Shown here: positions 22,808 through 59,866 of the stretch, in pieces
How positions within the stretch are numbered: position 1 is the first letter of the stretch
Layout: every line of letters begins with the position of its first letter
From: Candidatus Uhrbacteria bacterium
GTDB lineage: Bacteria; Patescibacteriota; Patescibacteriia; 2-12-FULL-60-25
Length of the DNA stretch: 64,000 bases
Assembly: GCA_018499965.2 (NCBI GenBank)
Contig: JAHBAS020000024.1
Coordinates: forward strand, 1 to 64,000
Reading direction: 5' to 3'
The notes under the pieces: generated by a model
Seen by the model: only the letters and a program-made list of their open reading frames with translations
The model's database searches: none
Told to the model about the DNA's origin: nothing
Program-made: the position numbers and the translations under genes

Positions 22808-24844
22808 TTAGACGTTGGTTGAGCGAGATTTCAAGAAGAGCCACGGAGCGATTCGTGCGAGCGGCGTCAATGCAACAAGTTTTAAGAGCACACGCGTAAT
22901 CACGATCGCTGAGAACATCGATGTCACGATACCGATGGAAAGCGTGAGAGCAAACCCCTTAATCAAGGACGACGTGAAGAGGAAAAGCACCAAACACACG
23001 ATCAGCGTTGTTGCGTTTCCATCTCGAATGGATGGCCATGCACGCGTAAACGCATCATCGATAGCTAATCCCAAGGCTTTTCCGGACTTCAGTTCCTCCT
23101 TCATGCGCTCAAAAATCAGCACGTTCGCGTCAACAGCAATGCCGATCGATAAGATGAAACCAGCGATCCCGGACATACTCAACGTAACCGGAATGAGCTT
23201 GAAGAGCGCGATCACGATCGCCGAGTAGCACACGAGCGCTAACACAGACATGAGTCCAGGCACGCGATAGAACATGACCATAAAGATGATCACGAAGAGG
23301 AATCCGACCAATCCAGCCACGAGCGAAGCGGATACCGATTCTGCTCCAAGTACCGGACCAACGGACTGCTGGGCGACGAGCGAGATCGCAACCGGCAAAG
23401 CACCAGCCTGCAAACGCTGCGAAAGCTCCTTCGCTTCCTGAATCGTAAAGTTTCCGCTGATCACAGCCTGACCGCTTGGAATTTCATTCTGAACCGTCGG
23501 AATACTGATCGGCGTTCCATCGAGGTAAATCGCGACCGGCTTGCCGATATTGCGACGTGTGATTTCCGAAAACATCTTCGATCCTTCGCCGTCGAACTGA
23601 AGCGAGACCTGCGCAGAACCCGTTTGCGGATCAAAATCGAGCGTGGCGCGCTGCAAGTTCTTTCCGGTCAAATCCGTACGCTTATACGGTTCGCTATCAA
23701 CGATATCCGACTGCCGCTGCTTTGCGACAGCGATGATCGTGGCGCGCATATCCTCACGAGGACGTTCACCAGTCTTCTTGATCAAGTGGAATCCGAATGG
23801 CGTTTCAATAACCTCGGAGATTTTATTCGTTTCCATCCCGAATGCCTTATTTTCAAAGGCCTCAACCATGTCCCCCTTCTTGAACCAACCTAAATCCCCA
23901 CCCGTCTCTGCCGCACCAGGCTCCTGCGAATATTTACGAACCAATGTGTCAAAGTTTTCTGAAGTCGCCTCTTTTGCAATCTTTTCAATCAATGCCTTTG
24001 CTTCTTCTTTGGTGGTCGTCGCCGTGCTGCGCTCCGCTCCCTTCCACTGGATCAAAAGATGCGCTGCGCTTACTTCAGAACCGATCGACTTCTTTTCCTT
24101 GATATCAACCACAGCCAACGTCGATCCATCATCAACGACTTTTTTCACGAGACCGGCCGATTGGCCCTGAAGAACATCCAAAAGTCCCGCATAAGTCGTG
24201 TTCTCGGAAAGCCATCCAGCATCAACCGCGCCAGAAACGTAGGCATGATCTTTCTGGAGATCACGCGCGACTTCATCGAAGTTCGCGCTTGATTGCACGC
24301 GCGTAAGCGCTTCTTCCGCAACCTTTGTCCGCGTTTCATTTTCCGCGTTCAACGCCTTCGTTTCTTCTTCGGTCAATGCACGACCTGCATCCGGATTCTC
24401 TTCGCGGAATTCCAAGATCGGCGTTTCACCGATCATTTTAATGGCTTGATTAATATCACGAACACCTGCGAGTTCGATCGTAAGACGCCACTGTTCACCG
24501 GATTTGGTGGTCAACACGGTTGGCTCTGAAACACCCATTTGGTTCACGCGACGCTCAATCACGTTACGGACGCCATCCATCGCGCTCTGTCGATCCTTTT
24601 CCGGGATCTTTGAGAGATCAGCGACGTATTCCAGGTGCGTCCCTCCCTGCAAATCCAAACCAAGGACGATCGGGAAATTCACAGATGGGATCTTTGCACT
24701 CGTAAGGGCGTTTACACGTCCAATGAGCCAATTAGCCCCTTGCGGATATGAGATAGAACCCGCAACGAGGAAAAGCACAAAAACGAGTAATGCCCGCTTC
24801 ACTAACGACTTCTTCGGAGTCGAAACGTTCTTCGTGGTAGCCAT
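22808..24844 (-). CDS. secD: SecD with inserted parvulin-type prolyl isomerase modules
   Basis: A 678-aa SecD. The family parts are TM1 (residues ~17-33), LGLDLQGGTHLEY, the P1 base with TPILEFRE, the second P1 half (LQFDGEGSKMFSEIT) and five C-terminal helices with GIAVDANVLIFERMKEE. Between TPILEFRE (~145) and TDLTGKNLQRA (~390), where other SecDs carry the P1 head, is a foreign block. Residues ~256-360 match parvulin/PpiC: VSAAHLLIQW, FDTLVRKYSQEPGAAETGGD, LGWFKKGDMVEAFE and TPFGFHLIKKTGERP. Residues ~168-250 look like a second, decayed copy (FDEVARDLQKD, GAVDAGWLS, LLDVLQGQSAG), recalling tandem SurA. The protein may fold or catch exported chains as they leave the channel; that role is inferred. 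The start fits a promoter 12 nt upstream. Confidence 0.93.
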   Translation of the reverse strand: MATTKNVSTPKKSLVKRALLVFVLFLVAGSISYPQGANWLIGRVNALTSAKIPSVNFPIVLGLDLQGGTHLEYVADLSKIPEKDRQSAMDGVRNVIERRVNQMGVSEPTVLTTKSGEQWRLTIELAGVRDINQAIKMIGETPILEFREENPDAGRALTEEETKALNAENETRTKVAEEALTRVQSSANFDEVARDLQKDHAYVSGAVDAGWLSENTTYAGLLDVLQGQSAGLVKKVVDDGSTLAVVDIKEKKSIGSEVSAAHLLIQWKGAERSTATTTKEEAKALIEKIAKEATSENFDTLVRKYSQEPGAAETGGDLGWFKKGDMVEAFENKAFGMETNKISEVIETPFGFHLIKKTGERPREDMRATIIAVAKQRQSDIVDSEPYKRTDLTGKNLQRATLDFDPQTGSAQVSLQFDGEGSKMFSEITRRNIGKPVAIYLDGTPISIPTVQNEIPSGQAVISGNFTIQEAKELSQRLQAGALPVAISLVAQQSVGPVLGAESVSASLVAGLVGFLFVIIFMVMFYRVPGLMSVLALVCYSAIVIALFKLIPVTLSMSGIAGFILSIGIAVDANVLIFERMKEELKSGKALGLAIDDAFTRAWPSIRDGNATTLIVCLVLFLFTSSLIKGFALTLSIGIVTSMFSAIVITRVLLKLVALTPLARIAPWLFLKSRSTNV

Positions 24845-24922: not shown

Positions 24923-24951
24923 TTGACAAAATGACCATTTTATGTTATCTT
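24923..24951 (+). promoter_or_regulatory. Strong promoter of the structured-leader locus
   Basis: A perfect TTGACA at 24923 and TATCTT at 24946 are spaced 17 nt. It is divergent from secDF and is the only clear promoter seen before three plus-strand genes. Confidence 0.75.
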
Positions 24952-24957
24952 TATTTG

Positions 24958-25105
24958 TTCTCTAGAAGATCCGGAAGCCCCTTCCAAACCCTAGAGCGAG
25001 GAGAGACGACCGACGCATCAAGGTCGAAAAAGAACAGATGTTCGGTTTTGTGATAACAAAGCCAAAAATATGACCGGCTCTCCTCAAAAAAGACGCCGGT
25101 TTTTA
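24958..25105 (+). ncRNA. Candidate structured RNA ending in an intrinsic terminator
   Basis: The predicted transcript starts near 24958 and can fold into a three-way arrangement. GAGGAGAG (24997-25004) pairs with CTCTCCTC (25079-25086). Inside lie CGACC/GGTCG and the hairpin GGTTTTGT-GATA-ACAAAGCC. ACCGGC and GCCGGT then enclose the 3' strand of the long helix and are followed by TTTTT, forming a terminator that overlaps it. This could be a free RNA or a read-through switch for the next gene. It does not match SRP RNA, tmRNA, 6S or RNase P as I know them. Confidence 0.5.
25075..25105 (+). terminator. Terminator within the leader, overlapping a long-range helix
   Basis: A 6-bp stem ACCGGC/GCCGGT with a 16-nt loop is followed by TTTTT. 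The loop holds the CTCTCCTC strand of the alternative helix, which makes conditional termination plausible. Confidence 0.55.
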
Positions 25106-25132
25106 GATCTTTATTCCGGTGATTCGACATAT

Positions 25133-25232
25133 CCCCTCACTTCAGGGCGCGAACAACATTCGTGAAATGAAGCGAGGGAGTATGGAACGCATGTCGCGTT
25201 TCACATCTTCCTCACTCAAAAGAGGATATCCC
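25133..25232 (+). promoter_or_regulatory. Leader element L1 (copy 1 of a duplicated RNA motif)
   Basis: This 100-nt leader matches the 99-nt leader of the next gene over nearly its whole length. CCCTCACTTCA pairs with TGAAGCGAGGG around an inner CGCGAA/TTCGTG helix. A second hairpin AACGC-ATGTC-GCGTT follows, then the start codon. Several differences between the copies keep the pairing. Confidence 0.7.
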
Positions 25233-25517
25233 ATGAATACCGCAGTCGCACTTTCCACCACCATGATCAATACCCGCACCACCCGTCGCTCTCTCAAAGA
25301 GCTTTGCCAACTCGCAATTGATGCCAATGCCGGCGTCGAACAAGTCGAGGCCATCGAATGTCTCTCTCGAGACTATGGAATCACGGAACGGCAACGACAG
25401 GCCCTTCGGACAAGGCTCTATCACATCGCCTTCCGCTACGCCTTCAAAAGCGACCCGAATGCCTGGCAAAGGCTCCATACGGAATTCGGCAAGATGAAGC
25501 CATTGAAGAATAACTGA
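25233..25517 (+). CDS. Unrecognised 94-aa basic helical protein
   Basis: No family is recognised. The protein begins MNTAVALSTTMINTRTTRRS and then has a run of predicted helices (LKELCQLAIDANAGVEQVEAI, YGITERQRQALRTRLYHIAF) ending in a Lys-rich tail. The three-helix, basic, Arg-rich character could fit nucleic-acid binding, but no defined motif is visible. The start was chosen because the duplicated leader ends exactly here and both leader-linked genes start ATGAA.AC. It is the first gene after a strong promoter and is followed by a 12-bp hairpin at 25535-25563. Confidence 0.6.
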   Translation: MNTAVALSTTMINTRTTRRSLKELCQLAIDANAGVEQVEAIECLSRDYGITERQRQALRTRLYHIAFRYAFKSDPNAWQRLHTEFGKMKPLKNN

Positions 25518-25534
25518 TCTTAGGTGGGACTTAC

Positions 25535-25563
25535 GAGAGCGTTAGACATTCGTCTACGCTCTC
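25535..25563 (+). other. Intergenic hairpin after the first leader-locus gene
   Basis: GAGAGCGTTAGAC pairs with GTCTACGCTCTC, about 12 bp with one bulge, without a U-run. Similar strong hairpins follow the second and third genes of the locus. Confidence 0.6.
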
Positions 25564-25661
25564 CCCTCACTCCATCACACGAAACATATTCGCGGGATGA
25601 AGCGAGGGAGCATTCAAACGCACATCGCGTTTCATGACTTCCTCATACGGAGCACTTTCCC
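25563..25661 (+). promoter_or_regulatory. Leader element L2 (copy 2 of a duplicated RNA motif)
   Basis: The sequence parallels L1: CCCCTCACT at the start, the identical GATGAAGCGAGGGAG-type middle, a hairpin AAACGC-ACATC-GCGTTT, CTTCCTCA and TTTCCC before the ATG. The loop of the second hairpin changes from ATGTC to ACATC while the stem is kept and even lengthened by one pair. Confidence 0.7.
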
Positions 25662-25952
25662 ATGAACACTCGTTCAAGCGCAGTCGTCGATTCCACCGTC
25701 ACTTCCGAAGAAGAACTTAGCCTCGTCCTGGCCGACACACCCATCAGCGATGACGATATCAACTTTCTCTTCAACGGAGCGTTCGATCAGGAATTTTCCG
25801 GAGAAGTTACGGTCCAAAAACCGACGATAGAGAGCAGCATGAACTTCGATACGTTCCTCGCTTCCGGAATCGACCCCACGACGATCGGCGACGAGGCAGC
25901 ACCACTTACGCTGCCATCCACGCTTCTCCTGCGAAACGGAGAAGGGAGCTAA
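25662..25952 (+). CDS. Unrecognised 96-aa acidic protein
   Basis: No family is recognised. The protein begins MNTRSSAVVDSTVTSEEELS and is strongly acidic (ISDDDINFLFNGAFDQEFSGE), Ser/Thr-rich and poor in Lys. It has short hydrophobic patches and no transmembrane segment or cysteines. Its charge is opposite to that of the basic 94-aa neighbour, which carries the same leader, so the two might bind each other; this is speculation from charge and context. The start is fixed by the L2 leader. It is followed by a perfect 9-bp hairpin at 25991-26012. Confidence 0.6.
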   Translation: MNTRSSAVVDSTVTSEEELSLVLADTPISDDDINFLFNGAFDQEFSGEVTVQKPTIESSMNFDTFLASGIDPTTIGDEAAPLTLPSTLLLRNGEGS

Positions 25953-25990
25953 CGAGCTTCAACTCGCGTCACGCGGACGCAAACAGGATT

Positions 25991-26133
25991 GAGGAAAACA
26001 CTCGTTTTCCTCTCCTCACCTCAACGCTTCATGCCGCATGCATGGAACCTCGAGATGAGGATGCATCCTACGCACCTCGACAATCACACAAACCGGGACT
26101 CATCATCCCAACAACCGCATCGTGGAGGCAATC
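25991..26133 (+). promoter_or_regulatory. Leader L3 of the third leader-locus gene
   Basis: A perfect hairpin GAGGAAAAC-ACTC-GTTTTCCTC is followed at once by CCTCACCTC, which can pair with GAGATGAGG at 26052-26060 (8 of 9 pairs). The layout (hairpin, CCTCAC-type stem, start) repeats that of L2, and the sequence itself is different. A GGAGG site precedes the ATG at 26134. Confidence 0.55.
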
Positions 26134-27426
26134 ATGTCGCTCTCTCAAGTTCTCGCAGACGTCTTCGGTATTAGCCGCAAACCAGCGAAGAAGCCAGAAA
26201 AGCAATTACCGACGATCATCGTCACACAACCCGCGGCAGCACAAGCAGGAAAAACCCAACCTTCCCAACGGAAGCAAGTAGAACAAACGAAGCGCAAGGG
26301 TCCACCGCCGCTTCCGCCGCCAGGAAGCCCTGTCTACGCAGAGGCCGCCCAAGGAGCTCGAGCTTTTCCAAAAGCCGCACATCCAACGGCAACCCTTTCG
26401 CCTCAACAGGAGTACGAGCGATCCAGAGCAGTGTTTCTCGCAAACCAACCCGCAAGTGCAGATCTAAATGCGCTCACATCGGATCTGGATCAAGAATGGA
26501 CCGCTATGGCAGATCAAGCACGTCAACAAAAGACGATGATGATGCCGCCCCGTCGTGCCACAGCGCCAGTCGCAATGACACCCACAACCGCGCCCACACG
26601 GACGCTCTACATGGAAGGAGCCATTCAAGTCCTACCATCGCCGCAAGCAGTGACTTCGACATCTTCGAAACCACCAGCTCCAAAGCGAACCATGGTCGGT
26701 ATCGGATCACCTACGCCGCCCGTGGCCGTACACGTGCCGCCTCAATCGAGACGACCCACGCCACCGCCAACGGCACCGACGCGCACTCCTGGAGGCAATC
26801 ACACCATCATGGGGTTCCCACAGGTACCGACAGCGGCCGCCGTTCCAGCAGCAACCGCCAAGCAACGCATCATGCCACCGAATACGCGGCAGACTATAAC
26901 CAGCGGACTATTCGACAAGACCAGACAGCCCGCAATGCCCGCGCCACTCAATGCACGAGAACAACTACGCCAAGGTCTGAGCACGGAACATGGACTATGG
27001 TATCTCTGCCAGCTATCCGAAATCATTTCACATGAACCACAAGGTGACGCAAAACCAATCACGATGGACTGCAACGGCTTGCCGATGTATTCAACCGGCA
27101 TTCTCGAGCGAGCCATCGCGAACGGCTATCGAGTCATCCTGTTGATCGACCGATTCAACTGCAAAGAGCAGCAGCCGGAAAGCAATCAGCCTGGGTGGTG
27201 GATGCAATATCTCGCATCGCAAGATGTCGTGATCAGCATCGATCAATTCTCAGGCAGTCATGCCGACCGACTTCTCTGGGCATGGAGGTCTATCTACGAT
27301 GCCATCGGCGCAAGTCAATTCGTTTCCCCTCGGATGACGCACGAGCAGCTTCGAGATAGCGTCCATCTGTATCAAGTCAGTCGCGGAAACAATATCCGCG
27401 CCTTCAATATCCGAGCCGCGTCCTAA
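26134..27426 (+). CDS. Unrecognised 430-aa protein with long Pro/Ala linker and C-terminal domain
   Basis: The ATG with GGAGG 5 nt upstream is used; a GTG four codons earlier is an alternative. A short N-terminal helix (MSLSQVLADVFGISRK) is followed by about 260 low-complexity residues rich in Pro, Ala, Thr and Gln (PPLPPPGSPVYAEAAQ; APTRTPGGNHTIMGFP). The last 150 residues form a compact domain with LREQLRQGLSTEHGLWYLC... GYRVILLIDRFNC... GWWMQYLASQDVVISIDQF... LLWAWRSIYDAIGAS. The alternating strands and helices suggest an alpha/beta domain with conserved-looking Trp and Asp residues, but I cannot name it. A tether plus domain fits a scaffold or effector. It closes the locus and is followed by a hairpin and a bidirectional terminator. 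Confidence 0.6.
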   Translation: MSLSQVLADVFGISRKPAKKPEKQLPTIIVTQPAAAQAGKTQPSQRKQVEQTKRKGPPPLPPPGSPVYAEAAQGARAFPKAAHPTATLSPQQEYERSRAVFLANQPASADLNALTSDLDQEWTAMADQARQQKTMMMPPRRATAPVAMTPTTAPTRTLYMEGAIQVLPSPQAVTSTSSKPPAPKRTMVGIGSPTPPVAVHVPPQSRRPTPPPTAPTRTPGGNHTIMGFPQVPTAAAVPAATAKQRIMPPNTRQTITSGLFDKTRQPAMPAPLNAREQLRQGLSTEHGLWYLCQLSEIISHEPQGDAKPITMDCNGLPMYSTGILERAIANGYRVILLIDRFNCKEQQPESNQPGWWMQYLASQDVVISIDQFSGSHADRLLWAWRSIYDAIGASQFVSPRMTHEQLRDSVHLYQVSRGNNIRAFNIRAAS

Positions 27427-27464
27427 CGCAGCTCATTCGCCCTTTCCCCTTTAACCTTCTCACC

Positions 27465-27492
27465 GTACCGAATTGCCATAGCAATCCGGTAC
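27465..27492 (+). other. Hairpin after the third leader-locus gene
   Basis: GTACCGAATTGC and GCAATCCGGTAC pair over 11 of 12 positions around a CATA loop. It lacks a U-run; the true terminator follows 22 nt later. Confidence 0.6.
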
Positions 27493-27513
27493 AGAACAGA
27501 ACGTTGAAGCAAT

Positions 27514-27556
27514 CAAAAAATCTCCTCACTTACAACAGAGTGACGGAGATTTTTTA
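27514..27556. terminator. Bidirectional intrinsic terminator
   Basis: AAAAAATCTCC.TCACTT and AGAGTGA.GGAGATTTTTT pair around a short loop and have T-runs in both directions. It serves the plus-strand locus and the convergent VIT gene, whose stop codon it overlaps. Confidence 0.85.
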
Positions 27557-58920: not shown

Positions 58921-58930
58921 CGCTCCACTC

Positions 58931-58978
58931 AATGCCCTCTCCGGCTTCCGGACGAGGGCATTGGCATCGTTGACGAAG
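58931..58978 (+). repeat. 48-bp hairpin + TTGACG module, copy 1
   Basis: Identical over 48 bp to 59799-59846. It has a 9-bp stem (AATGCCCTC/GAGGGCATT) around a C/G-rich loop, followed by GGCATCGTTGACGAAG. The TTGACG serves as -35 of the next transcription unit. Confidence 0.8.
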
Positions 58979-58998
58979 TCTTAAAAAAACCATAAGAT
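58970..58998 (+). promoter_or_regulatory. Promoter of the attenuated NlpC/P60 unit
   Basis: TTGACG (inside the 48-bp module) and TAAGAT spaced 17 nt. The start would be near 59005, 3 nt before the leader-peptide ATG. Confidence 0.65.
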
Positions 58999-59773: not shown

Positions 59774-59798
59774 ACGCCTGCATGAGCCACCCCTCCTT

Positions 59799-59846
59799 AA
59801 TGCCCTCTCCGGCTTCCGGACGAGGGCATTGGCATCGTTGACGAAG
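59799..59846 (+). repeat. 48-bp hairpin + TTGACG module, copy 2
   Basis: Exact copy of 58931-58978, again between two plus-strand genes, with its TTGACG used as the -35 of the next gene. Confidence 0.8.
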
Positions 59847-59866
59847 CGTCAAATTATCCTTAGGAT
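59838..59866 (+). promoter_or_regulatory. Promoter of the 149-aa gene
   Basis: TTGACG and TAGGAT spaced 17 nt, the same spacing as at 58970. The -10 covers an ATG at 59865 and thus rules it out as start. Confidence 0.65.

Follow-up and report, generated by a model that had tools for sequence, protein, structure and literature searches.

What holds together the short locus that separates secDF from a VIT1-family gene in a Candidatus Uhrbacteria genome? The window studied here, the whole stretch of 64,000 nucleotides (nt) that was analysed, is contig C28 of a genome of 1.11 Mb, and the locus occupies positions 24923 to 27556. Its features lie on the plus strand unless stated otherwise. Three open reading frames (ORFs) of 94, 96 and 430 amino acids, A, B and C, follow a promoter divergent from secDF; A is basic, B is acidic, and C carries a tether rich in proline and alanine. 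An earlier note on this DNA had described these parts, together with a hairpin after every gene (at 25535, 25991 and 27465), and had proposed that they form one regulated system. The parts are all present. Of the proposed system, a promoter-led unit with RNA-level architecture is kept in three of the four genomes of the genus; the three genes as a set are not. The strongest new result of our analysis is a pair of hairpins, H1 and H2, that touch one another in nearly every spacer of the arrays found in this slot.

Arrays occupy the slot between secDF and the VIT1-family gene in the window species, in Ca. Uhrbacteria RIFCSPHIGHO2_12_FULL_60_25 (G001, L004) and in UCB1 (G003, L046). What the three share is the promoter, a leader whose sequence has diverged and whose helices correspond, a probable pseudoknot, a terminator, and at least one protein bearing the ORF C domain. 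The G001 array, between secD and the VIT1-family gene, runs on the strand opposite to these two genes and consists of two tiny genes plus one homologue of the C-terminal domain of C. In G003, some eight small genes fill that gap behind a promoter and leader of the same type, and two of these genes are homologues of the C domain. A small membrane protein is common to the G001 and G003 arrays (phmmer E 2e-10); profile matches to it outside these two (23 of 25 genomes, E <= 0.1) were dropped as short and lying mostly within longer reading frames. Within spacers of the G003 array (L046, 3930-4000 and 4900-5025), a long, palindrome-like sequence that surrounds GAATTCCGAATTATTCGAAT occurs several times.

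Folding of the array spacers yields H1, a hairpin of 9-14 base pairs (bp) that starts 7-38 nt past the stop codon, and H2, of at least 13 bp, separated from H1 by 0 nt in nine of ten cases and by 1 nt in the tenth. Most H2 begin with a CTC-containing stretch. In the window, the pair follows A (H1 at 25535-25563 with loop ATTC; H2 at 25564-25608, CCCTCAC...GCGAGGG) and B (H1 at 25991-26012 with loop ACTC; H2 at 26013-26061, TCCTCAC...TGAGGA), with 0 nt between the hairpins in both places; the hairpin after C (27465-27492) does not conform to the rule. Ten of 11 array spacers conform, against 0.34 expected from 200 dinucleotide shuffles of each spacer and 1 of 113 control spacers, and that sole control spacer is a loose, weakly paired fold. 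The arrangement appears in 1 of 44 spacers near secD in family members; in other genera, none of 25 spacers taken from around C homologues or profile matches has it. The loops of H1 carry AYTC in all four cases from the window and G001, and those of G003 differ. The sequences differ and the architecture is kept in three species, in keeping with the expectation of the earlier note that the hairpins should persist at homologous loci. No more than three T occur in the 8 nt behind H1 in any of the ten pairs, and because there is no T run behind it, H1 is not an ordinary terminator.

What sets the locus apart is the abutting pair and not structure as such, which other co-directional window spacers have too. 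Minimum free energy z-scores run from -3.2 to -6.8 for spacers of the locus, and 9 of 14 other co-directional window spacers reach z <= -2.5. The abundance of structured spacers would fit an explanation in which there is no system at all, and the slot is a gene-gain hot spot for short-lived orphan ORFs whose hairpins are incidental or are the generic mRNA ends of this genome. The lack of conservation of A and B, the chance that they are not genes, and the failure of a first tandem-hairpin detector to show enrichment (all discussed below) would fit it as well. We consider this explanation unlikely, given that abutting pairs are rare elsewhere and frequent in the arrays, and that the leader and the C domain have been retained amid sequence that otherwise diverges.

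The arrays are headed by a promoter and leader. The sigma-70 type promoter TTGACA-17-TATCTT (24923-24951) matches 10 of 12 consensus positions; a promoter scan alone is weak, with 4 promoter-like sites found against 1.9 expected, and the same type of promoter can be read upstream of the leader in G001 and G003. The structured leader (24998-25104, fold z -5.0) comprises helix P1 (24998-25005/25078-25085), helix P2 (25007-25011/25022-25026), a possible pseudoknot between the P2 loop and a downstream strand (25015-25019/25037-25041), hairpin P3 (25044-25063) and a terminator stem with T run (25073-25078/25095-25100) that the 3' strand of P1 overlaps. The elements stand in the same order on the minus strand of L004 (6161-6262) and L046 (5176-5293), and all three species have GGAGAGA, CGACC/GGTCG, an A-rich stretch, more hairpins and a CCGG...CCGG-T terminator. 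The layout of the leader outlives its sequence, since BLAST sees no leader similarity between species. The P2 loop is complementary to the strand behind P2 in different letters per species (GCATC/GATGT, GACGGTT/AACCGTC and GCGGCA/TGCCGC), with shuffle p values of 0.025, 0.003 and 0.004 for regions picked by eye.

A search with the exact leader pattern matched 8 of 380 genomes of the class, and the reversed pattern, used as a control, gave 0. The rest of the motif and the slot occur together at three same-genus sites; the other five matches were dropped because the remainder of the leader is missing. A leader-like sequence elsewhere in the same genome (contig C27, E 0.02) was set aside as well, as it follows a tRNA and none of the other elements accompany it. 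Rfam contains no known RNA family that matches the locus (E <= 5 for the window locus, E <= 1 for the G001 and G003 arrays, and the gathering threshold for the whole window); one tRNA elsewhere in the window is the sole significant match. A leader peptide was considered and set aside, for the reading frame in the window leader stops early when read by eye.

P1 and the leader terminator share bases, as read by eye, which suggests attenuation. Attenuators and riboswitches in which a pseudoknotted hairpin stands ahead of a terminator are a general kind of element. Like them, this leader has a 5' hairpin whose loop would pair downstream, followed by a terminator that overlaps an upstream helix; unlike them, it has no Rfam match, was found in one genus only, and precedes cargo genes that hint at no ligand. 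Alternatively, the leader could stand by itself as a small RNA with its 3' end at the leader terminator, and the downstream genes could be served by weak read-through or by other promoters. A strong promoter and a T-run terminator do bracket about 150 nt in all three species, as such an RNA would need. The leader, however, heads an array in all three places where it is found, and our weak promoter scan gives no second good promoter before A, and we therefore regard an independent small RNA as improbable.

The explanation that we prefer, and to which we give about an even chance, is that one promoter and an attenuator-like leader produce a polycistronic RNA whose cistrons are insulated from each other, or cut apart, at the hairpin pairs. 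Transcription would start at the single strong promoter and pass the structured leader of about 150 nt. As P1 and the terminator overlap, one may exclude or remodel the other and so gate read-through. The read-through RNA would be polycistronic, with strand and promoter pointing to a single unit, and nearly every stop codon with a spacer behind it would lead into H1 directly touching H2. H1 could shield the 3' end of the message before it and H2 the 5' end of the message after it, and the junction of the two hairpins may be a cut or pause point that makes each cistron a separate unit. Such separation would allow genes to be added, lost or swapped without upsetting their neighbours. As part of the same explanation, and with the same balance of belief, the locus would be a genus-specific expression island for fast-changing small genes. 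We also considered a role for H2 in masking Shine-Dalgarno sites; H2 cannot be a general blocker of this kind because most genes have a separate Shine-Dalgarno-like site after it.

The nearest established behaviour would be the division of operons by protective hairpins. Excerpts of PMC5927463 describe how protective hairpins downstream of genes and structured 5' ends in front of them reshape operons in E. coli, and the programmed mRNA decay of papBA and menBCE resembles our proposal in that hairpins and structured 5' ends segment a polycistronic mRNA. The hairpins in those excerpts stand at some junctions of ordinary operons, whereas the arrays described here have a touching pair in nearly every spacer and consist of orphan genes. 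Hairpins between the cistrons of what is probably a single unit, the feature by which such operons are recognised, occur in the same 10 of 11 array spacers. We found no paper on arrays of this kind in open-licence PubMed Central. One could go further and envision a previously undescribed kind of locus, a fixed slot in which orphan genes form a plug-in array under the command of one promoter and one pseudoknotted leader, and in which the coaxial H1-H2 element is a universal, sequence-independent separator (a cut site or a protein-binding site) that permits free exchange of cistrons. This broader proposal is tentative, and we consider it less likely to be right than wrong.

An array of promoterless orphan genes that run one way behind a single promoter, each trailed by an element conserved in structure and variable in sequence, also recalls an integron. 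The structured elements would in that case serve recombinase-driven shuffling of cassettes, with the attC sites described in excerpts of PMC9024848 as the parallel, and the leader and first codons duplicated ahead of A and B in the window could be read in the same way. However, the attC box pair RYYYAAC...GTTRRRY (the consensus as generally known) is in 0 of 11 spacers on either strand, the elements here are two abutting hairpins and not one, and the duplicated block extends into coding sequence and not to a cassette edge. No recombinase or integrase was noticed among the neighbouring ORFs that we read, no profile search having been aimed at integrase. An integron-like cassette array is thus a poor prospect.

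Several observations weigh against a leader-driven, hairpin-divided unit. The H1-H2 criterion was fixed after the structures had been seen. A first detector, which took exterior-loop stems only, found tandem hairpins in 2 of 11 array and 13 of 72 control spacers, that is, no enrichment. A second detector, with nested stems allowed, gave 10 of 11 against 8 of 51, and under three stricter settings 7 of 11 array spacers against 5, 3 and 1 of 51 controls. The 11 spacers are not the same set throughout: pre-gene spacers are counted for the first two detectors, and spacers behind the last gene take their place under the final rule. A spacer of 25 nt, and junctions at which genes overlap, were excluded in G003 and G001. 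Limits of the array spacers were set by hand, and control genes came from a crude ORF picker. The comparison comprises three species and three loci, from which all array spacers come. The fourth genome of the genus, G002, lacks a C homologue, and beside its secD there is another gene and no array. The leader could be a free small RNA instead of an attenuator; its fold z-scores in the three species are -5.0, -1.45 and -2.93, so that the G001 leader folds little better than shuffles, and the pseudoknot strand of the window leader is also used by a competing hairpin.

Are the genes themselves conserved? ORF A (25233-25517, 94 amino acids) has an isoelectric point (pI) of 9.8 and no homologue that we could find: among 41 family genomes the best E value apart from itself is 0.12, with none better than 0.1 in the 40 others. 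ORF B (25662-25952, 96 amino acids, pI 4.1) is species-specific and was found in its own genome only, out of 333 searched. Neither has a match in the other arrays that keep C. By these searches A and B are not conserved, and the relatives hold other small genes in the same slot. Co-occurrence of the three genes in relatives, which the earlier note had set as its test, therefore fails.

Over 52-84 nt, the stem region ahead of A shares 76-77% identity with that ahead of B. The CCTCAC-type hairpin ahead of A (about 25128-25184) is 77% identical to the copy ahead of B, and it is followed by two more small hairpins (25185-25226), the second of which holds a Shine-Dalgarno-like AGAGGA. Such stems had been described as lying just ahead of the starts; they are present and end about 48-72 nt before the annotated start codons, with the exception that an in-frame ATG at 25182 lies at the stem of A. 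This ATG, just behind the CCTCAC stem and a GAGGGAG, could add 17 residues to A, and the stretch that it would add (25182-25232) scores as non-coding. Similarity between the two leaders runs on into the first codons (MNT..., read by eye), and because it does so, we conclude that a leader module was duplicated onto an unrelated ORF.

A and B could be chance ORFs, and their coding is putative. Shuffled sequences contain one plus-strand ATG ORF of at least 94 amino acids in 899 of 2000 cases and two in 144 of 2000. Codon usage is atypical in A, B and C. The in-frame codon score is about zero in A, in B and in the C domain, and the tether has -0.13, compared with 0.09 to 0.34 in 16 training genes and 0.11 in the VIT1-family gene; for A and for B, one antisense frame outscores the coding frame.

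The opposite charges of A and B, their common leader and first codons, and the compact domain at the end of C would fit the idea of a regulated partner pair, for example one of toxin-antitoxin type, with C as a tethered effector. This pairing is unsupported because A and B are not conserved: both are unmatched in other arrays that keep C, they have no PADLOC, PHROG or Pfam match, and homologues of C in other genera stand alone. We regard it as very unlikely. That none of the three proteins belongs to a recognised family was borne out, with no significant match of A, B or C in Pfam, PADLOC or PHROG, nor of the C domains in NCBIfam. Ten cargo proteins of the arrays likewise gave nothing significant against PADLOC and PHROGs, and so represent no known toxin-antitoxin or phage-defence family in those collections.

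ORF C (26134-27426, 430 amino acids, pI 10.0) is a different case. Its residues 21-285 are 31% proline plus alanine, and its compact C-terminal domain (about 26980-27423), which had been noted as such, is a conserved one that we call YSTG after its motif. An alignment of seven sequences gives YSTGxLExA-like letters, STGxLExA being invariant, and a WW pair. The domain is common to all three arrays (phmmer E 7e-07 to 3e-03, and profile search), and because it is conserved it can be taken as safely coding. By profile it is present in 6 of 380 genomes of the class; a seventh match, in G365, was excluded, as it has no YSTG motif and resembles a different domain. A wider search of the phylum found it in its own genome only (1 of 379). 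Outside the genus it is encoded by a small gene that stands alone and has promoter-like and terminator-like signals to itself, as read by eye in G172, G140 and G028, and the long tether is present in the window species only. The G172 homologue is 140 amino acids long. Short motifs, among them KRTMVGIG and NHTIMGFP, recur along the tether (26700-26900). Similar proline-rich TMxG motifs are found in proteins of other bacteria.

An AlphaFold model of the G172 domain (mean predicted local distance difference test score, pLDDT, 78; predicted template modelling score 0.75) consists of a strand, a helical turn, a beta-hairpin, a helix and a strand. HAD phosphatases head its Foldseek list, at E 0.023 at best, with no match significant. 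VIA-align on the domain model reaches a best Z of 5.8, with matches that include the T4 PNKP phosphatase (Z 5.8, 95 residues aligned, 3.5 A), and a viral structure library gave nothing at E <= 0.001. The likeness to HAD-fold phosphatases is thus a weak one, at the level of fold, in one model; against it, the domain has no significant match, a second model with the window sequence first (pLDDT 73.5) gives no HAD-led list, and the catalytic DxD motif, as generally known and with its place hanging on the weak fold match, is not in the seven-sequence alignment. A degenerate HAD-like fold is a lead only. Sequence searches of solved structures gave low SH3-like matches (E 0.005-0.013) and one at 1.4, which we discarded. 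A phage origin was likewise rejected, with no match to C in 50,697 phage records and no relative in three scans of viral contigs.

Candidate Phyla Radiation bacteria have tiny genomes that keep many orphan genes. A slot in which the RNA architecture stays constant and the cargo changes offers a way to study the expression, gain and replacement of such genes. As a concrete and testable RNA element, the double hairpin might act as a natural cistron separator.

The locus closes with a hairpin between C and the VIT1-family gene (27513-27556, both strands) that resembles a bidirectional intrinsic terminator, as had been described; it has T runs on both strands, and was seen by folding and is not listed in a simple terminator scan. 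On the other flank, SecD (22811-24826, minus strand) contains a PPIC-type (parvulin) rotamase domain (residues 242-352, Pfam E 2e-31) and aligns over nearly its full length in most of 40 matching family genomes; its upstream neighbour is secA or other genes in several family members. In G003, secD is separated from the array promoter by two additional genes, adjacent and lipoprotein-like (L046, 5447-6046 and 6077-6682, minus strand), with a weak DUF3558 likeness under the Pfam cut-off. Elsewhere in the window, a 71-nt unit is repeated at 87% identity (58928-58998 and 59796-59866, plus strand) behind two genes of another small module, which includes an NlpC/P60 protein; the unit consists of a hairpin, AATGCCCTC...GAGGGCATT, followed by a TTGACG promoter-like sequence.

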